DNA of 64,000 nt from Watersipora subatra. Its lineage: Eukaryota > Bryozoa > Gymnolaemata > Cheilostomatida > Watersiporidae. Location: assembly GCF_963576615.1 (NCBI RefSeq), contig NC_088711.1, positions 39,056,621 through 39,120,620 of the forward strand, given 5' to 3'. The stretch's first letter is position 1, and each line of letters begins with the position of its first letter. The notes under the pieces are model-generated. The model ran no database searches. It saw nothing but the letters and a program-made list of their open reading frames with translations, and was not told where the DNA came from. The position numbers and the translations under genes were made by a program. Positions 1 through 60,500 of the stretch are shown here, one piece after another.

Positions 1-3000
1 AATTATGGCATATAATTAGACCCGCCGTATAAGTCAAGGTTTTAATTTTGGTTTTAAATTCATGGTTTTTCTTTATACCTGCCATGTACATGTAAGTCAA
101 CCCTGTTTCTGGCTAAAATCGCTTGATCGCTACTAGTTCAGTCAGCATTAGAGGTGGCCAATGCATAGCCGAGGAGACAGCATTCAAAAATACTTTCAAC
201 AAAATTGCCTATGTTTTTGGTGCCATCGCCAATACAATAATTAACAATAAAAAAAGAAGACCATTCTAGTGAATACCAAAGGATACAAAAAAACAGCATT
301 TCACCATCATATTGGCCTGTTTTGCTTGTAGAACAAAATTGCCCCCTCTCCTTCCTCTCTCTTTCCCTCCTCCCTTTCCCCCCTTACCCCAACCCCCAAC
401 CCCCCCCCTCATCGATACTGCATACATATTTAACAGAAAAACACTACTGCAAGACAGAGTTCTGTCAGGAACTGTAATTCATGTACAGAAAAAAATACGA
501 ATGGACGATATTGGATGTAAGAAATGAACTACCAAAGTACTGATTTGTAGGCAAATACTACGAAAAGAAGCATTAAACGCTAAAAAATGTTTTTCCAGAA
601 ACGAATCGTAGCAATTTGACAATTTGGATGGTGAAGAATGAGACTTTATGTTGACTTATGTTGAGCAGGATTACTAGCATTTTGCTAATTTATAGATAAA
701 TCCCTATCCCTAGATATATCCCTACCCTATGTAGTTTTGACTTGCAATGATTATTCTAACTTTACTAAAATTCAAATCATGAAAAACAGGCTGTACAAGT
801 TGAGGATAAAATTTTAAGCTTGAAACTTGTTGTCAAATTTGCGACATATACACTAAAATTTACAGTGTAGAACATTTCACCCACAATCTTTAATTATTTT
901 TACTTTATGGGCGTTTTTCATTCTAACTCACTCCTGTCAATCGTAGTAGCTTACATAATTATCTGGTAATTAAGTTTTTTTTAGACTTTAAATAATGGTT
1001 TAGATAATGGTAAATAGTGGTTTAAATAATGGCCTCACTTTCAGAATCGCATGTTCACATATATTCTCAATGGGATGTTCATGTTAATTACAGTCAAGAA
1101 TTTGCAGCAGAACGCTGAGTATGCTCTAAACTGGAAGTTCGGTGATGACTATTATCTAAGACTCAGACAACAAATCACCTTATAAATTTTATTTCTACGG
1201 GAAGTGGAAGTCAATTAATCTAGTTTAGTTGTCAAATCAAACTTGTAGTATAGAAATTGCATTTACTAATGTAATTAATAGGAATACAGCTGATGAGTTT
1301 CTTGTGGATTAGTGGAAATTTTATTGGTGTATGCTTTTTTATTCTGACAGTCTATAAATGGTATTTGTGATATGTAGTAGAATTTACGGTATATAGAACA
1401 CGTTCTAGTGCTATCCTGTTGGTGTTTTGTTTTAATATATTAAAAAATAAATGTAATATTATTATTAGAACAATCATTAAAAAGTGTTGTATTACTTAAA
1501 TTGATTTTCACGGATGAGATTATTTGTCTAAAGGCTTGCTTAAAAATGTTTTATATTTTAAAAACATATTTTTCTGTTAAACTTAATGTGGAAAGAGATC
1601 AATTTGTTTCACAAAAGCTTGTTAAAAGAGGAAGTTTTAACCCAAATACTGTACGTTACTTAGGGTTTTCTTACATCGCGTGTAAACATTCTCTAGATTG
1701 GCCTATGATATAATATTATATGGTATAATATTATAACATGATACAATATGATATGATATAATATTATATGATATAATATTATATGATATAATATAATATG
1801 TTATAATATTTTGCATCTTAGCATGTTAGCTGAGTTTTGATGTTTAAATATATATTTTTTCCACTTTTTCATCAATTTTTTCTTAAAGGTATTTATCTGC
1901 CAAATAAGTTAAGCAAGCGAAATTGCTGTCCCTAAGTATGTTAGCAAATCAAATAAAACAAGTTTTAAGGACTTAAATTTAATTTACTCTATTAATGCAG
2001 CGGAAAACTGTATTACAATCACAATAAATCTTTCATAGTTGATCACGTTGATCACTTCTCTGTTCATAGATTGGCTATTATATACAAACCCTTCTATAGG
2101 TATGAGCTTAGAATAACTGAAGAATGTTTGATACATCATCATGCCACTGTAACCCAGTCTACACATTACTTAAAGTGTTACTAATAAGTAAATCAGTTAA
2201 TTTAACAATATATATTACTGTAAAGGCTGATTCGCACTATACCGCAGTATGTCTGCGTTAATGCTACGGTACATTGGTAATCTTCTGTGATAACATAGTT
2301 CAAATTATTACAAACTTATCCACATTTATATCAGTGTATAGTCTACGACGTAATGTTCCAGCACTCAATCCTATTACTGAAACAAACCACTAGTCTTGCA
2401 GCAACTATCACGAAGGGAAATATATGTAGATAAAGCAATATACGACAGCCAATCACCATCGCCGAAGTGATGCACACTGTTCAGACTGATGTATATACTA
2501 GGCAAAATATGAAAATATGGAGAAGTTTAACAATTGCAATGTTTCCCGGCATATCTGCATTGCCTCGAAGATGTCGTCAGTTTAGGGTTTACATAGTCGG
2601 CAAATAATCGTCGAGAGGACAACCCTGACATACGGCGGGTACATGGTCAACCAGCTTTAGCTAAAATATGTTTAGTACAGCTCAAGCAAGATCATCTAAC
2701 TTTCTGTTTTGCTTTGAAACTTTATTCGCTATGTATTTGTATTTTTTGTATCATTCATGTAGCTAAAACATAAAAACCAAATGTCAAAAAAATTTTAATG
2801 TTTTCAAAATCGTTTTAAATTAAATTAATTAATCTTTTTAAATTAATTAATTGTTTTAAACCGGGTTAAAAATGGATTATTGAAAACAACTTTCACAGCA
2901 AATAGAGGTGCAGCGATTATAATAACATTATTTCTAACCATGAGCTGTAGTCTATTCTCACTCATTGTTGTTGTAATTTTTTGTTATTTAGAGTGAGCTG

Positions 3001-4740
3001 CGATCAGTTTTGCTTCAACTAATTTGGCTTTAATCGCTTTGGCCTCAGCCAACTCGGCATCAACCAATTTGTTTCCAAGCAATTTGGCTAATAAAGAGAA
3101 CTGTTGAGTTAGCTAAATTTAAAAAAAACTCAAACAAACGCAAACACAAGTATGAGAAAAGTATTTATTAGCTTTGCTAGTGGCACAGCCTTTCCTATAT
3201 TGCTAGTGAAGTCCTTAAATTTTATAAGATTTGCTATTACTTTACTAGTATCTGAAGTTGCTTGTAATTAAAATCAAAACAATAAAATATAACTTAAATA
3301 AATTTAAATAAAATTTCTATTTATTTGCTTTTTTTAAACTGTTGATATCAACACTCAATATATCACAGGTCATATTTAGCTTTTTCAGAAGGTAATGAAG
3401 AATAAAAGTTGAATTGTCTTCTGTGCATTGCGAATCACTCTAAAAAATCACAATATTAAAAGCTAGTAGGGCCTACTGATTCTTCCATCTGTTGCTATTA
3501 TAGAACTATTGAACTCAATAAATAAATAATTTTTAACTGGAAATTTTTTACTCAATTTCGTGTAAAGATGTATTTCAGAAGTACCCAACTCTCAGGTTCA
3601 GAGTTGGAAAAATGTATGATTTTTTTTAGTTGCGTTTTTTTCAATAGAGAAGCAATTTGGCAGTTGGATTTAGTTTAAGGAGTTGCAGTGTCAGCATCGA
3701 AATTTTAGTATAGCATACTAATAATGCACTATTATTCATAGCTTATGTCAATAAAGAAGAGAGAAGTTCATTTTTATACACTTCCGGCGTTTCATATGCT
3801 TAGAATAGACACAGTTCTGTTAATTCTTTAACAATTTTTTAATTGATTGTTTAAACATCCTGCCAATGATTGAATAGTTCATAAGATCTCTTTGTAGTAA
3901 CCTGACTAAGCTTGTTTGCCTCAGACCTATCTGATACTAAATGTTGTAAATTTTAATAAAAAATGCTAAAACACTCAAAGTATCATGAAAAGTTACATTC
4001 AGCACTAGTTAAAAACTAAATATCGACGTTGGCCATATCGATAAAAATTAACTAACAGTAGTTTCAATAAAATTGATCAAATCTAGTAAGTTATTAACTA
4101 CACAGGAAGACGGATTGCAATTAAAAGCACTAATACATATAAATCATGGACTATTAGTTATAATTTTTTTATATATTATGTAATTATATATTATATAGAT
4201 TAGTATTAGGTTGTATAACAATGCTAACTACTTCTTATATGGTTTCACTGTTTTGTAATCTGGAGTTTAGCAATGTACGGTTAAATATAATAATAAGACA
4301 AACAATTCTAACAAAAATTCCTTCTCGAAAAGTTTTTTTCTTGCTCCTATTAAAATCGCATAATATTATTTGAAAATTAATATAATTTGCTAGTATCAAG
4401 CAACTTTTATTTCAAAGACAAATACATAAGATTTATAACCAGACAGATGGCTGGACCAGCTCACATCAAACACTCTTGACCATCTTTGTCAACGGAATAG
4501 CATCAGCGACACTAACAATCATATCATCTACGTAAACGCATCCTACAATATAATAATACTGAGTCTTATCAGCTTGATAGGCTAAGCCATAGACCTATTA
4601 ACTATATGAACCATAGACCTATGAAGTATGAACCATAGGCTTATTAACTATTAAGTATAGTGAATAGGTCTATGGGCTGAACCTATTGTAAAGGAAGCAG
4701 CCTAGTTCCTCTACTTGCTCCACAAGGAAACAACTCATTT
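1..4740. other. Non-coding AT-rich region
   Basis: No open reading frame here has protein-like composition or usable splice sites, and the short ORFs are chance. The region holds an AT microsatellite (1704-1806), AT-rich stretches with repeated TTAATTAA words (about 2810-2850), a short degenerate repeat built on CAATTTGGCT (about 3010-3095), and several copies of CCATAGACCTAT in both orientations (about 4590-4680). Confidence 0.6.
1704..1806. repeat. AT-rich microsatellite
   Basis: Imperfect repeats of ATGATATAATATTAT-like units run through this stretch. Related low-complexity AT sequence recurs at about 12870-13130 and 30490-31200. It is simple-sequence DNA without coding meaning. Confidence 0.75.
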
Positions 4741-43449: not shown

Positions 43450-43565
43450 AGGAAAAAGATTACACCGTACAGGATTCGAACCCACAACTTCAGAACAATT
43501 GTGCAGATACTTGCTCGTTGTGCACATGATGATCTTTCACAGCCCCATTGGACTGTCAGGTCGCT
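43450..43565 (-). repeat. Possible tRNA-derived SINE
   Basis: Read on the minus strand, the segment has GTGGGTTCGAATCC (box B), then TGTACGGTGTAATC and a T run, after an A-box-like start in GACAGTCCAATGG. This resembles tRNA-derived SINEs of molluscs, but no second copy was aligned inside the window. Family assignment is inference. Confidence 0.4.
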
Positions 43566-48500: not shown

Positions 48501-51500
48501 TTCATAGATATGTCATTCTAAAGCGTATCTATCGACAGCTTCCAAATTGGGAGTTTGATAGATTGCGAGTGTAATTTTAAAAACGAATAAACGTTTAACA
48601 AAGGCACAAGTACTCCAAGCCAACGATTCGAAGCTTCGGTTCTGGAAATTAAAGATTTGCATTGATCAATCGATTTTCTTCACTTTCTACAAGTGAAAAG
48701 TGAACATCTAATGTCAAATCATAAATCTAATTTACTAGATAAAGATGCCACAGAAAATTTGAAGCAAATGTAGCTAGGTGAACCGATAAAAAAATATAAA
48801 ACGATGATTAGTGATAGCAAAAAGTTACAATTTTATTAATTAGTACATGTATTAATGAGTACTAAAATATTACCTCTAGTATATTCATCAATCTAAGCCA
48901 TTGTATAGCTAGATGCTAAAGATTAAAAAGAAGCCATCAAGAACTTACTGTACATAGGTATCTCGCACGCGCAGGAAATTACATTTTAGCCTCAAACAGG
49001 GAAATATAATCTGAATGTAAACTCAACAGGAAACTCTATTGGAGACTCAAAGTAAAAGATAAATTTACCTCCATTCTCTGAGCTTCCTCTGTAGAACTTG
49101 AACTACCTGATGCCAAAAAAACTCGGAGTCACCTTCGCAGTAACTTTACAGCAATTTTACAATTACATGTATGTTGTTCGCCAATAAAATGTGTCGATCG
49201 AGTAATTCATTAAAGTAACGATGTTAATTAATTTAGTAAATGTCGATGTCCATGTGAATTAATAATAGAGTAAAATCCCTAAATTTGAGATCACAGACAA
49301 CACGCTTTACGAGTGATAACATTTATTATGGCCTATATAAAAATTTCACGCTGATGATTGGCTAAGGGAGCGACCTCATATTTATCGCTCGTGGTTTCTT
49401 TTCAGATATATTGCTTGTGACGTCACGAAAGAAGCACCCGCTGGAACGTGAGCTTTTTAAAAGAGGGCCTCATTCAAACGCATATATCTCTGGACAGGGT
49501 TGGTCTAACAAGACAAAAATGGCATCAAATTGTAGCTGATGTTTTAGCTTTTTATTGGTCTTAATTTCATTAAATCGAATTTTTTGACGCAACCACATCT
49601 TTAATGAGCATTAGAATATCGATGGCTATTACATTAAATGCATTTTCACGCTTCAGTCGTTTTTATGAGGTATTTTTACGCACCAAATATGGCTAACAGA
49701 CTTTTTAACAGACTTTGGTATGATCTCTATTTATATTAGTATATTTTGCTCTTTTTAAATCTTTAATGGTTAAATAAGTCAATTGCGAATAGCTGAGATA
49801 GGTATTTATTAAAAAATAATGACGTTTTTGATTGTTTTCTGATCACTATCTCACTCAGTAAAAACCCCCATAACGCCATGGAAAACCCTGGGAAATCCTT
49901 TTTGTGAATGCTATATGATCTCTGAATGAAATGCGCAGTTTCACATGAGTGAGATAGTGATCAGAAAACAACCAAAAACGTCATTATTTTTCAATAAATA
50001 CCTATCTCAGCTATTCGCAATTGACTTATTTAACCATTAAAGATTTAAAAATAACAAAATATACTAATATAAATAGAGATCATACAAAAGTCTGTTAAAA
50101 AGTCTGTAAGCCAATTTCGGTGCGGGAAACATGTCTGTTTTTATTTCGATTTCAGCAGTCTCAATGCGCCAACGTTTCGAGAGATTGCTGCTAAGCTTAG
50201 CGTGACAAGACTGCGTAGCTAATTATAGAGCCATTAATTAGTCTACTACTTGACCTATGGGGTCAAGCGCTGGCGTTAAATCTGCATCAGCAGGTGTTCA
50301 TTGAAACGCTTGATTGCACAGTAACTGAACTTGAATCATTCGAATTATGTGAATCATGCAAATTATGTGAGTCATGAAAACATAGTAAATGTAAACCCTA
50401 TCTCGCCTGCTTAACTGCTAATGCAGGTAGCTTGAGCCAAATCATAAAGCAAATTCTCTGCCTGTAGAGAGTTGTAAAGTTGTAATTAAATAGGTGAGAT
50501 TTGTCAAACTTAGTGACATAATAGATATGAACTGCAATCATGTGTAGGTGAGTGCGTGCGTGCGTGTGTAGGTGCGTGCGTGCGTGCGTGCCTGTGGATT
50601 CTTTCATAGATTTTTACACATGAGGTGTTTGAATCCCAATGAGAATCTTTCATAATTTAATGAAAATATATAGTGGTATTTGCCTTCACTTGAGTATATG
50701 ATGGTATATGATAACAAGACAGTTTCTGGAAATCTTTATAACCAAACTAGTGCTATATTTTACAAGGCATACAAGTGAAAAAACTTTTTTGTATGCACAC
50801 ATTTTGTACCTCTTGAAAATGAAATTAGGTCACTTAGTTTCTCATTAACTTATTGACTTTGGCTACAGTCAGCAGTAGTTTTATAGACTGTTTTTACTAG
50901 CTAAACTCTCATCATGGTGATCTGTTTTTGTACAGCCCAGCCATCTGATCTCTGATGATAACACTATAAAGGTCATTAACAGGTCACATGATAGGACTAA
51001 CTATAAGTAGAGATATTTTACATATGCAATTAAAGTGTTTGCCAAAAAAAATGCAGAGTCATGTTTAAAAATATTGCCACATATCTTGCAAAAAGTTTAT
51101 GTCAGCTTAAAAATGATCGCTCTGTCTGTAAGGAATGTTCTAGAAAGGTTAAGCGTTATGGGTAGAAAAGCTTGATATGAATGTGTTTTTAACGCCTTAG
51201 AATTGATAAACTTTTTGTTAGTGTTCAGTTTGTCTAGAAATTATGTTTTGCATAAACGGTCTAATATCCATGTCTGTCAGGCTAAGAAACACGCAAAGAT
51301 GATATTCCCTTTGAGTAAACTAGCTATGCATAAGATTATTTTTTGCATAGAAAGCTGTTATGTTCTTGGTACAGGTTTTGCCATCCAAAGCTGACAGACT
51401 TTCTCTGGCGGCAGATATTGGTTGTGGATCAGGGCAGTCAACCAAGGGTCTGGCAAAGTTTTTTGACTCTGTCATTGGTCTGGATGTGAGTGAGGAGCAA

Positions 51501-54500
51501 ATACAGCAGGCTATCGCGGACAACACATTAGACAACATCCAGTTCAAGTATGGCCCTTCATAGAGCTGACCCATTATATCATGGCTACAAAGTGTTACAT
51601 GTATATTGATTACTGATTAGCACTATTCAACACTGGTCTTAGCATATCTCCTATGTTTCTAATACATGCTTATGGAACAAGCCAAAGTGAGAGTCAGGTA
51701 GTTACGTGTTTAATTAAGTATATGAGATTAAAGTTAACTTTTTAATTCTCAAGTGTCATAATTTATCATAGTTTCCAACTGATACATTTGCCCTTACATG
51801 TTGTGGCTGCTACAGTTGTCTCTTTTAAGTCTGGTTTCCATATGACAGCGCAAGGCGCGCAACAAGGCGCGCAACAAGGCGCGCAACAAGGCGCGCAACA
51901 AGGCGCGCAACAAGGCGCGCAACAAGGCGCGCAACAAGGCGCGCAACAAGGCGCGCAACAAGGCGCGCAACAAGGCGCGCAACAAGGCACGCAACAAGGC
52001 GCACGACGTCGTGCGTAGGCCAGCTGTGATATGGAAACGTCAACGCACGACGATCGCGTGACGTGCGTATGCTGATCGCAAGGAGCCAACAGAATAGATC
52101 CTTGCGACGGGTGCGGGCGATGATGTATCCAACAATACACCGCTCGACCTTTTCAATCTATCCAACAATTCAAACGGAAAGCTGTTTTCCGAAGAAATCG
52201 ATCTCCCGTACAAAAGAGTAGGCCTGGTTTTTCTACGACAGCGCAAGGTCGCAACGGAGGGCTGTTTTTCGAAGAAATCGGTCTCACGTATGAAAAAGTA
52301 AGAAAATTACCCACCCTGTCCAATGCCAGCATGGCGCCTAGGCGCGCTATGGAAACACTGCGTCACAGCCCAAGAAATGCATTGCGCACGATCACTGGGC
52401 CGCACACAATCATTGCGCTATCATATGGAAACCAGGCTTAAACGCGGCATACTATTTTGCACATATTTTCATACCAATTAGATTAATCCCCAGGCTTGGT
52501 ATCTGATCATTAGAGGTTATTAAAGCTGATCATGTTTTGATGCAATAGTTGATTGCTTTCTGAATCGTATCTTGCAGAGCGTCAACAGCGGAAGATTTGC
52601 CTTTAGATGCTGTCTCAGTTGACTTGGTAACTGTTGGTATGGCTCTGCACTGGTTTGACTGGCCAACATTTTACAAGGAAGTGAGATGAGTATGCTTGTT
52701 ATGTCTGTTTTAATGTCAGTGTTACACATTTCAGTTCAATAACTATTTGATACACAAATTTTTAATGTAAACTATTTGTACTAAGTCATTGAGATGTGCT
52801 GCAGAAATACTTGGCCTGAGAGAAATTAGTGTTTTCAGGAAAAGATTTTGTTGTCTGAGATGAAGTTCATGGTCAATAATCTGTATTTGGAAAACTGACA
52901 TAAGACTGTATAACATATTAGATTACATATCACATTAAACAGTACCATATATCAGATAGTAACACATATTAGTCTGTGCTACATATAAAACTGTGTCACA
53001 CATTAAATTGTGTCACACATTAAACTGTGTCCCACTTTGGACCCGAATGCATATTAGCTGGTATCACACATAAGAATGTGCCACATATTACACTTTTTCA
53101 CGCATAAAACTGTGTCACATATTAGACTGTGCCACATATTAGACCATGTGACGCCTTAGCCTGTGTAACATCATAGACTATGTGACAAATTAGACTGTGT
53201 CACAAATTTGACTGTGGCAAACATTAAAATATGTCACATATTAAACTGTGTCACACATTAGACTGTGTCACATATAAGAGTGCCCCTCATATTAGATGAT
53301 GTCGCACATTAGGCAGTGTTGCTTATTAGACTGTTCAGAGCATTAGACTGCATTATAGCAATATAAATGAACTTATTACAAATTCATTTATTTTGACAGA
53401 AAACTTCTTTTTTTGTTCGTATATACATATAAAAAGAATGACCAACTATCACAGGCTGGTCGCTGGCCACTTTAGGTCAACATGTATAGTTTTAGCATAC
53501 AAAAAAGACAAACTACCGTACAGGATGAAAATATTCGTTGGTTATAAAAATTCGCGATTTCGCGAACAGACAACTCCGCGAATTATAAAATTCCGTGAAT
53601 AATTAGTTCTATTTTTAATCACAATGGAGAATAACTACTGCATCAAATTAAAAACTAGCCGCTAGGCTGGTTTTTAATATAAATACTAAACGTAGTTGAG
53701 TTTCAAAACATTTTTAAAATCATTGCCTAGGCTTTGAGCTAACACCATTGCCAATGCATCACATTTCTTTACAAAATTTGTCACAAGATATGCAGAATGG
53801 CGTCATTGCAAAAATAGCCACTAAGCAGAGGTACTAAGCGTAGCCGAGTTCCAAAACATTTAAAATCATCACCGGGCTTCGAGTTTTATTGCCATTGCAT
53901 CAAACTTTACAAAATTATTCAAGGTTTTCACAAGTTGTTCGGCATGGCTTCATCATCACAAAAAAATCTCTCCTAGTCTTTTTACATTGAAATCAACTCC
54001 ATCAATCTCTAATACCGAAGTTGAGGACGATCATGATTCTGATCTGGACATTATGGTATGTAATTGATTTGCAGTGCAGATAGGTTTTTCCATAATTAAC
54101 TGCATTAGTTAATTCTTTTGTTTAAAACTGATCGCTTTCATTAAATACTTCAGCTATTGTTTTTGTACTTCCTTGACACTTGTTAATATTTTTTTCTTTT
54201 TTGTGTTTGCTGCAGATTGAGTATGAAACAACCTACTCTGAGTACAAAAACTAGAGACAAGTAGTAATATTCATCAAGGCAAGAATATTGGCAGAGAAGC
54301 AACCAGTCAACTTAGTCAACCAGTCAACTTCATCGACAACTCATTGATATCACTGCAGCAAACATGATTAAATTATATATTTTATTTCATGTATAGATAT
54401 ATTATAGTTTATTACAAACTTGAGTGTACAAATAAAATATTTCAAATACAAATAAAATTTTACAAACGATGAATGGAGTAAATATAAACAGTTTAGTCAT

Positions 54501-57500
54501 AATGGCGGTTATCTAGCAATAAAATTAAACTGGTACTCTTGATAAGTGAATACTAGCGTGAAATGGTGCTCTCTGACTAGTTATTTTGGTAATAGCAGCA
54601 TTGTCACTTTCTTGGGTAGATGTTAAAGGCGATTCTCTCGCTACTACACGACTGGTAAGGAAGTTATCATCAGAACTCTCCTCGTGGCTTACTATTGTAA
54701 AGTTCTGCCAGTTGGCCAAAAATTTGTGCTCATAAAGGCGTCTTTGTTCCTTTTTTAAAACAGATATATTCTCCTCGTTAGCAGCTGCGGCCACTTCTAC
54801 TTCAATTTCAAGACCTCCCTGAATGATTGGTGATCTTCTATAAGAATGACATCTACCACCCTTGCAATCATTGTTCTTCCGTGTATGATGAAAAATTTCT
54901 CTCTCACACTGAAACAAATAATGAAGCGGTAGGGATGGAAAAATAAATATTGCGTTTTACCGAAGAAGCAAAGTAAAATTCAACTAATTTAGTTAATGTG
55001 AAAAACTCATTACTTACCACAAATTGTTGGTTCATCAAAGGCCTCCAAATCTATGAATATTCGTGAAAACCTCTGAACGCAGCAAATAATTTATAGCTTA
55101 GCCCGATCCACCCGTAGTTGTAAGCTAAATAGAAAACAAAACGGGCAATGCGCGTAGTCACGCATGCGTAAGGTTAACTCTATTGCTAGGCGTAATAGAG
55201 TTAACTTTTCCTAGAGAGTGGCAGTTTTCAGCCGCGAATAAATTCATCCGCGAATTTGCATAAAAAGACAATTTTCGCAAAATATAACTCCGCGAATAAA
55301 TTCATCCTGTACGGTAATTATCAATCCCTTTGTTTGTTTTTGTCCGTCGATCGCTGACTATTTCCCTACCACTTTTGTTGCTGTATGCTATTAAAATCAA
55401 CATATAGTGTCTTTAGATGTGGTCTTGTCTTCTCGGGTCTTCTCTTTTCTTTTAATACGTCATGCATAAAGATAATTTTTTGAGAAGACAAATGGCTTAT
55501 GGCGTAATAGTATTTTGATTATATAATTTTTGTTAAAATGACAAGTTTGATTGCCATGGACGCTTCAAATAATGAGGCATTTGTGTCAGTCACAAATTCG
55601 ATATTCAATATTTTGTTCGCCTTAGCGAGCTAAGACAGGTAAGCTAGACAGATCATGTATGGTCAGTTGAGTTGAATAATCAGAACAGGTCAGATCAACT
55701 GAGGTGATTAATCAGAACAGAGCAAGTCAGGTCAACCGAGGTGATTAATCAGAACAGGTCAGATGAGGTATCATCTTATGACATAGACCTCATGCTAGCC
55801 CATGCTGTAAGGAGTTCAATAAAATAGAACCAACCAATAAAGCCTTAGTTCTGAAACAAGTTGGTATACCAGATGATATCTTAATTGTAGCCTTAGTTCT
55901 GAAACAAGTTGGTATACCAGATGATATCTTAATTGTAGCCTTAGTTCTGAAACAAGTTGGTATACCAGATGATATCTTAATTGTAGCCTTAGTTCTGAAA
56001 CAAGTTGGTATACCAGATGATATCTTAATTGTAGCCTTAGTTCTGAAACAAGTTGGTATACCAGATGATATCTTAATTGTAGCTTTAGTTCTGAAACAAG
56101 TTGGTATACCAGATGATATCTTAATTGTAGCCTTAGTTCTGAAACAAGTTGGTATACCAGATGATATCTTAATTGTATTTTGTATATGCCTCCTCCATCA
56201 AATGCTTCTGTTTACTGCTGTTGACATAAAAATTGTACATGTTATTGAAACAGCTGTGTTCCTTTACTACCTGACAAGAAACCAAATATTCATTTTTCAT
56301 AATAAAATATACATACATGTATATATAATATACAAGTATACATAGTCGAGAGTGCGCATACAAATTAACTACATCAAATGAGTCATGCTCGTTTATGTAG
56401 TGCTTTACATCAAATGCAGAGCATTTCCCATTTATCCGGGATGAATGGGGAGTGCTCTGCCTTGTTTACTGATTTATGATCTATCCTCTTTTTTACGATG
56501 CGAGCCGACAGGGTCTGCCCCCTTCCAAAAACCCAACTCGGTAACAGGTTGCTTCTTCATCTGCTGACTTGGTCACAAATCGGTCCTCTCTTCTGTCAGC
56601 TCAGTGGCCTATCTGCCGTACTTCCAGCTGGATGGAATGCAAACTCAGTTTCCTGTTGGCTCGACCTTGCGAGGACTATTTGCATCTTTAGCAGTTCAGA
56701 AGGTCTGCGCTGGCCTTCTGAACTCAGCATCTCTAGTTGGTCGTGCTGGCTTACCTTGGCCCTGGGCTCGGCTATTGCCTGTTGTTAAAATATCACAAGA
56801 GCTTGTTAAGACCTGTTCTCAAAGTTACTACCGTACAGGATGAAAATATTCGTTGGTTGAAAAAATTCGCGATTTCGCGAACAGACAACTCCGCGAATTA
56901 TAAAATTCCGTGAATAATTAGTTCTATTTTTAATCACAAGGGAGAATAACTACTGCATCAAATTAAAAACTAGCCGCTAGGCTGGTTTTTAATATAAATA
57001 ATAAACGTAGTTGAGTTTCAAAACATTCTTAAAATCATTGCCTGGGCTTTGAGCTAACACCATTGCCAATGCATCACACTTCTTTACAAAATTATTCAAG
57101 GTTGTCACAAGATATACAGAATGGCGTCATCGCAAAAATAGCCACTAGGCAGAAGTACTAAACGTAGCCGAGTTCCAAAACTTCTTTAAAATCATCGCTG
57201 GGCTTCGAGTTTTATTGTCATTGCATCAAACTTTACAAAATTATTCAAGGTTTTCACAAGTTATTCGGCGTGGCTTCGTCATCGCAAAAAATCTCTCCCA
57301 GTCTTTTTACATTGAAGTCAACTCCATCAATCTCTATTACCGAAGTTGAGGACGATTATGATCTGGACATTATGGTATGTATTCGTTTTGCAGTGCAGAT
57401 ACGTTTTTCTATAATCAACTGCATTAGTTAATTCGTTTGTTTAAAAACCGATCGCTTTCATTAAATACATCAGGTATTGTTTTTGTACTTTCTTAACACT

Positions 57501-60500
57501 TATTAATATTTTTTTTCTTTTTTGTGTTTGCTGCAGATTGAGAATGAAACAACCTACTCCGATTACGAAAACTAGAGACAAGTAGTGATATTCACCGTGG
57601 CAGAAATATTGGCAGAGAAGCAACCAGTCAACCTAGAAGCAAAGCAACCAGGCAGAAAAGCAACCAGTCAACCCTTTCATCGACAACAACTCCTTGATAT
57701 CGCTGCAGCAAACATGATTAAATTATATATTTTATTTCATGTATAGATTTATTACAAACTTGAGTGTACAAATACAATGTTTCAAAAACAAATACAATTT
57801 TACAAACGATGAATGGAGTAAATATAAACAGTTTAGTCTATATGGCGGTTGTCTAGAGCAATAAAATTAAACTGATACTCTTGATAAGTGAATACTAGTG
57901 TGTAATGGTGCTCTCTGATTAGTTATTGTGGTAATAGCAGCTCTATATCGCTGTCACTGTCTTGGGTAGATGTTAAAGGCGATTCTCTCGCTACTACATA
58001 GCTGGTAAGGATGTTATCATCAGAACTCTCCTCGTGGCTTACTATTGCAAAGTTCTGCCGGTTGGCCAAAGATTTGTGCTCGTAAAGGCGTTTTTGTTCC
58101 TTTTTTTAAACAAATATATTCTCTTCGTAAGTAGCTGCAGTCACTTCTACCTCAATTTCCAGATCTCCCTGAGTAATTGGTGATCTTTTAAGAATGACAT
58201 ATACCACCCTTGCAGTCATTGTGCTCGCGTGTATGATGAAAAATCTCTCTCACACTAAAACAAATAATGAAGCGGTAAGGATGGAAAAAATAAATATTGC
58301 GTTATACCGAAGAACCAAAGTAAAATTCAACTAAATGGTTTTGAGAAAAAACTCATTACTTACCGCAAATTGTTGGTTCATCAAAGGCCTCCAAATCTAT
58401 GAATATTTGTGGAAACCTCTGAAAGCAACAAAGAATTTATAGCTTAGCACGATCCACCCGTAGTTGTAGGCTAAATAGAAAACAAAACGCGCAAAGCGCG
58501 TAGCCGCGCATGCGTAAGATTAACTCTATTGCTAGACGTAATCGAGTTAACTTTTCCTAGAGAGTGGCAGTTTTCAGCCGCGAATAAATTCATCTGCGAA
58601 TATGCATTAAAAGACCATTTTCGCGAAATATAACTCCGCGAATAAATTCATCCTGAACGGTATTTATACCAAAAGCTACTGACACGATGGAAGCACTTAT
58701 AAACAGATATATTTTTGTGCAGGTAGACCGAGTTCTTAAACCGGGAGGAGTTATTGCTGTATACATGCACAGCTATTGGGTTGAAGTTGTAGACCATCCT
58801 AAAGCTCCAGATCTTACAGCATTCTTAACAGCGGTATGTTCAGTTTTTATGGTTCGCTAACATCTTGGTTATTTTTACTGTCCATGGTATAACTTGGAAA
58901 AAAACTATATATATATATATTGTTTCGTTGAACCACAATTTTTATTTAGTAGTTTATTTGAGTTTTAGTATTATTTGTCATTCTCTGGTTGTAAGCTGAA
59001 TCTAATAGCACTATTTTATGGTGCTGACTGCAGCTAATTAGCTTCCTGTGTTTATAGGTACAGGATGACAACATCATTATATAACTTTGATATGTATATG
59101 TTCAATTTGTATAATTGTTCTATTGAATAACATTTTAAAAAATGTGCAGGTAATGTGCCACAGACTTCAATAATGGAGCATTCTTGCAGCAGTTCATGAC
59201 TAAACATTTTTGAGACATTTATTTTACTAAAATAGCATATAAACTTGGTGAGTAGCTTGTAAAATACCATTTTCTGACGTGTAAAATTATATTTAAATGT
59301 TGGCTTAAAAATATGTGTGGTTTTAAAAGGTTTATTTGTGTTATCACTTGTACAAACCAGAAAAGTGTGATAAATCTAAAAATAAAAATAAACTTACATC
59401 AAGGAAATCAGTGTAATCTTATAAGAGTTATTTTTTACATTGTACAACAAACTCATAGAAAATATGCTCAACGAAGCTTTGTTCGGTGATGCAGAAACTA
59501 TATTTTCAGATCTGATAAATACTTTTAACGATACCACATCAAAACTCTCCTTATCATAACATTGACTTTAAAAAAATTCCTTTTTTAAGATGATGATGAT
59601 GATGATATGAAACTTTGACAAATTCCAACTTTTTTAAATGGTCCAAAGGTCTTTGTGCTTGTAGTTGAGAGAAACTGTACCCATAATAGTCATAATAATA
59701 AAATATCTCATTCGGAAGTCCACGCTAGATAAAAGTCGTTTGTTACAGCTTCTGAGGGAGGAACCTATATATAGCTACTGGCACAATAGAGATAAATGTT
59801 TAGATGCTAGGTATACAGAAGAGGGCTTACAGATACCTTATCCTGATACTGAGAGGTGAGTATTCTTAATATCCTGATATTAATAGGAGAGCATTCTTAA
59901 TATCCTGATATTAATAGGAGAGTATTCTTAATATCCTGATACTAGTAGGTGAGCATTCTTAATATCCTGATACTGAGAGTTGGGTATTTTTAATATCTTG
60001 ATACTGAGAGGTAAGCATTCTTAATATCCTGATACTAATAGGAGACTATTCTTAATATCCTGATACTGAAAGGTGGGTATTCTTAATATCCTGATACTGA
60101 GAGGTAAGCATTCTTAATATCCTGATACTAATAGGAGAGTATTCTTAATATCCTGATACTGAGAGGTGGGTATTCTTAATATCCTGATACTGAGAGGTAA
60201 GCATTCTTAATATCCTGATATTAATAGGAGAGCATTCTTAATATCCTGACACAAATAGGAGAGTATTCTTAATATCCTGATACTGAGAGGTGAGTATTCT
60301 TAACATCCTAGTACTAATAGGTGAGTATTCTTGATATCCTGATACTAATAGGTGAGCATTAGTAATATCCTGAGAGTGATAGATAAGCATTCTACATATC
60401 ATAATACTGATAGGGGATTCATCCGATGATAATTATTTAATGACACATAATAAATGCTTACAGAGTATCAAATTACAATTTGGAAAACATTACTTGTATA

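Follow-up and report, generated by a model that had tools for sequence, protein, structure and literature searches.

Two neighbouring repeats in the genome of the bryozoan Watersipora subatra each appear to carry a pair of small spliced genes, which raises the question of whether they are mobile elements with genes of their own, carriers of captured exons, or noncoding DNA in which frames happen to be open. Both lie in a stretch of 64,000 bp (C4:39056621-39120620 of a 784-Mb genome in 239 contigs; hereafter the window, meaning the whole stretch) and belong to an element of about 1.8 kb with terminal inverted repeats (TIRs). Comparison of the copy family genome-wide suggests that the element is probably a non-autonomous, TA-targeting TIR transposon that has been moved in trans and carries drifting gene remnants. 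Both copies end in CCGTACAGGATGAA (in copy 2 at 56831-56844 and 58647-58660, the right end with one mismatch). The coordinates, ends and TA flanks reported from sequence alone were verified, as was the presence of the GT/AG junctions at which the gene-like parts would be spliced. In window coordinates the features are:

53516..55314, plus strand: element copy 1 (non-autonomous TIR transposon, about 1.8 kb), flanked by TA, with 96.3% identity to the 43-copy consensus
53516..53529, plus strand: left terminal inverted repeat of copy 1
55301..55314, minus strand: right terminal inverted repeat of copy 1
53944..54055, plus strand: exon-1-like part of the 49-amino-acid (aa) plus frame of copy 1; ATG present, frameshifted, open in the consensus
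54216..54254, plus strand: exon-2-like part of the same frame
55018..55035, minus strand: start of the minus frame of copy 1 (MNQQFV), followed by GTAAGT
54525..54908, minus strand: exon-2-like part of the minus frame of copy 1, the 133-aa reading of which hangs on a 2-bp insertion in this copy
56831..58660, plus strand: element copy 2, flanked by TA, member of a small subfamily (5-6 members)
57270..57374, plus strand: exon-1-like part of the plus frame of copy 2, with GTG in place of ATG
57537..57575, plus strand: exon-2-like part of the plus frame of copy 2

The evidence for mobility lies in the ends and their target sites. The exact 14-mer CCGTACAGGATGAA was found 499 times genome-wide (253 forward and 246 reverse), as against 0 and 1 for its reversed control; thus the hundreds of ends are not chance occurrences. 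Spacing was determined for the 95 places on contigs C1 and C2 among 100 listed of the 499, and these resolved into 36 pairs plus 23 single ends. The spacing was 1.64-1.90 kb in 34 of the 36 pairs; of the other two, in the 3.2-kb pair another repeat has split the copy and the 2.2-kb pair contains a 395-bp insertion, so that none of the 36 represents a longer, transposase-bearing relative. Provided that most ends are paired, the genome harbours at least about 250 copies, to which diverged copies would add.

All 45 element records (two of them duplicates) have TA on either side, and so do 65 of the 68 end pairs; position −1 is A in 44 of 64 and position +2 is T in 41 of 64. Flanks joined with a single TA were then compared against the window and the fetched loci, which yielded 40 alignments that cross the junction. 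In 8 of the 13 inspected the unfilled sequence has TA, and in the other 5, at 74-83% identity, TA is absent. One such unfilled site lies in the window itself:

49335..49604, minus strand: paralogous empty site of copy L035 (joined flanks with one TA, 90.7% identity, gap-free round the junction)

The joined flanks of L035 also align with L097 (88.5%, gap-free round the junction), and those of L097 align with L020 (86.9%, gapped and reaching only about a dozen bases beyond TA). Empty sites with a single TA argue for cut-and-paste movement with duplication of TA rather than for ends that themselves contain TA, and support insertion at a single TA.

No transposase is encoded within the element. 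In the majority consensus of 43 copies (1806 bp) the longest stop-free stretches span 156 (the minus frame), 74 and 70 codons, leaving no room for such an enzyme, and neither product matches Pfam above cut-off; the earlier description as a transposase-less TIR element therefore holds. A longer relative with the same ends, proposed as a check in the sequence-only reading, was found neither among the 36 exact-end pairs of C1 and C2 nor among 30 of the 37 genomic places with a variant 5′ junction (a different following base), the 30 comprising 18 full-length copies, 1 inverted copy and 11 truncated, deleted or interrupted ones. In this limited search, C or G followed the end at 2 further places, and a variant base preceded the right-hand junction at 10. 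The foreign DNA at the breaks of six copies (L102, L011, L100, L031, L037 and L088) was free of end-like sequence, and no stretch of it recurs from one copy to another. DDE_3 transposase domains are present in the genome (150 scored matches of 488 candidates), and those best 150 were compared with 100 of the 499 ends. By eye, one of the listed DDE_3 places on C1 and C2 is close to a copy, separated from it by about 570 bp. It belongs to a neighbour; 601 bases of flank hold no second end, and by eye the flank resembles the C-terminal part of a Tc1-like gene.

To judge the gene-like segments across the family, 75 copies were examined. The sample is non-random: L009-L038 were chosen by similarity to the minus product of copy 1 and are therefore biased toward long minus frames, L039-L075 were chosen by exact ends and L076-L105 by the variant 5′ junction, with loci excluded where the match to the consensus was split or shorter than 1.6 kb (the inverted copy among those excluded). 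Clustering gave subfamilies of 20, 12, 5, 5 and 4 copies, the remainder falling into smaller groups; mean pairwise difference in the 20-copy subfamily is 2.2%, and copy 2 sits in a 5-copy group. Identity to the consensus is 92.4-97.4% in 42 of the 43 copies. It is only 71.7% in L056 (G000:C2:11410973-11413400), because the middle (positions 572-1491) is inverted. With these 920 bp turned round between the two splice-donor-like sites, each first part now faces the other second part. A switchable segment was considered and discarded: a pattern over the junction, with up to 2 mismatches allowed, has a single match in the genome, as does its reversed control, and the inversion was therefore taken as a private rearrangement. 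Upstream of the plus frame, a segment of about 140 bp is tandemly duplicated (consensus 166-308 and 323-460; halves 79-81% identical in L056), and the duplication takes in the start of that frame. Seven CGCGAA/TTCGCG words are grouped at both consensus ends (36-62 and 1725-1783), and AATAAA/ATTAAA words occur on both strands between the two stop codons.

The 133-aa minus gene proposed from copy 1 proved not to be a family-wide feature. Splicing at the proposed donor and acceptor yields a product of 28 residues in 45 of the 75 copies and of more than 100 residues in 4, copy 1 included; copy 1 enters its long frame via the 2-bp insertion (CTTCTATAAG versus CTTCTAAG in the consensus). In the consensus and all five subfamily consensuses alike, the spliced reading meets a stop 22 residues into the second part, and splicing was thus rejected as the common reading of this strand. 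Left unspliced, the consensus has an open reading frame (ORF) of 151 aa from the same ATG; an ATG ORF as long arose in 1 of 1,000 dinucleotide shuffles, and a stop-free stretch as long in 4 of 1,000. The unspliced reading is fragile as well. Its counterparts in the five subfamily consensuses, taken as the longest ATG ORF of each, measure 153, 114, 52, 97 and 114 aa, respectively, lengths reached in 0, 16, 747, 57 and 15 of 1,000 shuffles. ATG and at least 140 aa of the unspliced frame are retained in 5 of the 75 copies, and at least 90 aa from an internal methionine in 25. At positions 1090-1094 the majority consensus is a composite matched by no single copy, and therefore two versions of the C terminus exist: by calculation, 26 copies (with an 8-base insertion) keep the consensus frame (...ELLLPK) and 49 shift to a longer one (...SRVPV). 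The 20-copy subfamily has spread although 14 of its 20 members are without the full minus frame.

The plus frame, which had been described as open in copy 2 alone, has its ATG and is intact in 43 of the 75 copies; the two window copies are by chance among the damaged ones, copy 1 by its frameshift and copy 2 by the GTG start, as had been noted, the ATG being present in the other 4 of 5 members of the copy 2 subfamily. The consensus frame joins MASSSQ...DLDIM to IENETTYSDYEN, giving 49 aa; unspliced, it would stop after 40 aa. ATG is kept in 70, GT in 73 and AG in 71 of the 75 copies. Copies about 96% identical would be expected to retain these features to this degree even if selection did not act. 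Of the two presumed genes, the consensus thus closes the spliced minus one and leaves the plus one open, so that the closed-frame outcome named beforehand as a refutation applies to the minus gene and not to the plus gene.

Selection was assessed as N/S, the ratio of nonsynonymous to synonymous variant sites observed versus that expected from the noncoding spectrum of the same copies, with CpG treated separately (95% intervals in brackets). Counted by site, N/S for all variants, for those shared by at least 2 copies and for those shared by at least 4 was, respectively, 1.08 (0.77-1.52), 0.94 (0.55-1.61) and 1.02 (0.42-2.48) in the plus frame; 1.02 (0.79-1.31), 0.94 (0.65-1.35) and 1.15 (0.66-2.00) in the exon-2 part of the minus frame; and 1.05 (0.85-1.30), 1.06 (0.76-1.46) and 1.18 (0.71-1.96) in the unspliced minus frame. 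Control frames of the same stretch gave 0.74-1.78, so the scatter of the method is wide. Distinct insertion or deletion (indel) events per kb numbered 107 in the plus frame, 122 in the minus exon-2 part, 140 in the minus 5′ part and 121 in the rest; those found in at least 2 copies numbered 27, 43, 47 and 28 per kb and so were no scarcer within the frames. Multiples of three accounted for 6 of 16, 7 of 40, 3 of 18 and 32 of 145 indels, respectively; the difference between the plus frame and the outside is not clear, and in the minus frame neither indel density nor the share of multiples of three is lower or higher than outside. Neither frame is visibly maintained and clear purifying selection was not detected; with the spliced minus reading closed, the claim of two conserved spliced genes does not stand.

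We therefore favour a ~1.8-kb family with short TIRs that inserts at TA, duplicates it and moves by cut and paste, a transposase produced elsewhere presumably recognizing the ends and perhaps the CGCGAA-rich subterminal repeats as well. The two convergent segments have GT/AG junctions and enclose AATAAA-type words; they would be coding leftovers, most simply the exons at either end of a longer parent that lost its middle, and may thereafter have drifted with no detectable constraint. Several points weigh against this reading. The plus frame is open, with ATG, GT and AG, in all five subfamily consensuses, and its N/S for shared variants counted by cells is 0.74 and 0.72, values that come without an interval and count inherited changes many times. 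Stop-making variants shared by at least 2 copies number 1 against 2.7 expected in the plus frame and 2 against 5.7 in the minus exon-2 part (combined, 3 against 8.4), whereas the minus frame read unspliced shows no deficit (7 against 7.8). The wide interval may leave room for constraint on the plus frame in a master lineage, and, as the search turned up no autonomous partner carrying such ends, assignment to a superfamily is provisional.

Among the alternatives, the one that survives best, though we regard it as doubtful, is that the open frames are accidents of noncoding element DNA that was never a gene. It accords with N/S near 1, with the low confidence of the AlphaFold model that 13 copies gave for the unspliced minus product (mean predicted local distance difference test score 46, unusable) and with the unremarkable longest ATG ORF of two of the five subfamilies (52 and 97 aa). 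It is opposed by the rarity in shuffles of an ORF as long as that of the overall consensus, of the 20-copy subfamily and of two others (16 and 15 of 1,000), and more than one coincidence would be needed to yield two frames that converge and both have a GT/AG junction.

An unlikely explanation is that a TIR element captured host exons in the manner of Pack-TYPE elements, the segments deriving from host genes with introns, for which the GT/AG junctions and the length of the consensus minus ORF relative to shuffles speak. Against it, neither product matched a Pfam family above cut-off: the only listing, below it, was PA-IIL (E 0.05-0.06, minus product), and the best PDB hit of the minus product, the only one searched there, was 1v65 at E 0.4. 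The latter, which we take to be KRAB-like (the listing names only a RIKEN cDNA), was regarded as chance, with no KRAB match in Pfam. No host parent gene was seen among the 30 loci from the best 150 scored of 3,812 first-look candidates in a genome search with the minus product, and viral contigs held neither a relative of that product nor a match to the right end.

That the element encodes a small functional protein aiding its own spread is highly improbable, since the plus frame open in every subfamily consensus, the scarcity of shared stops and the cell-based ratios are countered by site-based N/S of 1.02 and 1.15 for variants in at least 4 copies, by equal indel density inside and outside and by the loss of the full minus frame in most of the youngest large subfamily. 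It would be similarly a long shot that the acidic-rich 49-aa spliced plus product, made by rare master copies, influences mobilization or silencing of the element as offspring copies decay.

Regarded as a remnant-bearing transposon moved in trans, the family shows both the TA target duplication and the TIRs of Tc1/mariner elements. With non-autonomous Tc1/mariner-type elements resembling miniature inverted-repeat transposable elements (MITEs) it shares TIRs, TA duplication, many copies in subfamilies and the lack of a transposase, and differs from them in its two convergent gene-like segments. A length of 1.8 kb is long for a MITE. Because of the TA duplication, which according to one report links the IS630/Tc1/mariner group (PMC7325037), the mobilizing enzyme is most likely of Tc1/mariner type. 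ISL2EU elements of the PHIS superfamily, as described in PMC4482050, have autonomous forms mostly with two ORFs, a 2-bp duplication, which is AT, and TIRs usually beginning with GG; the present family differs in duplicating TA and in products that match neither the DDE/THAP transposase nor YqaJ, having no Pfam match above cut-off. Pack-TYPE elements, described in plants (PMC8903248), are likewise transposase-less TIR elements with exon-like content. Theirs is host-derived; here no match was found for either product in Pfam above cut-off or, beyond the chance-level hit, for the minus product in PDB. The end sequence CCGTACAGGATGAA was not found in the literature searched, and titles and opening lines of abstracts contained no description of such an element. 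An undescribed family, as earlier suggested, is thus possible, of an otherwise ordinary TIR-element type.

Several other observations were made by the way. A copy on C1 (L039; G000:C1:45440200-45444000) has another repeat nested at about 560-1970, partly palindromic by eye, and L102 (C9:46585594 region) is interrupted at 2020-3018 by a frame of 290 codons that by eye is reverse-transcriptase-like. Three copies at C5:25.80 and 26.70 Mb (L087-L089; about 86% identity) have a common end at consensus 1163, beyond which L087 and L088 share their DNA (96% over 153 bases), suggesting that a truncated copy spread with its surroundings. In the window, a degenerate 17-bp tandem repeat directly precedes copy 1 (53016-53366), and several near-identical units of a 48-bp tandem repeat lie between the two copies (55793-56225). 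A TIR-like place at 43465-43490 is by eye not an end; GGATTCGAACCC there resembles a tRNA B box and possibly belongs to a tRNA-derived short interspersed nuclear element, and ARAGORN and Rfam gave no tRNA or RNA match in the window.

The view from two copies misleads, as the 133-aa 'gene' of one of them vanishes across 75. The family accounts for a few hundred repeats in the W. subatra genome, and unless transcripts are shown, their frames should not be annotated as genes. Should an autonomous partner be found, the family would illustrate the shrinkage of a parent with two genes whose exon borders were kept.

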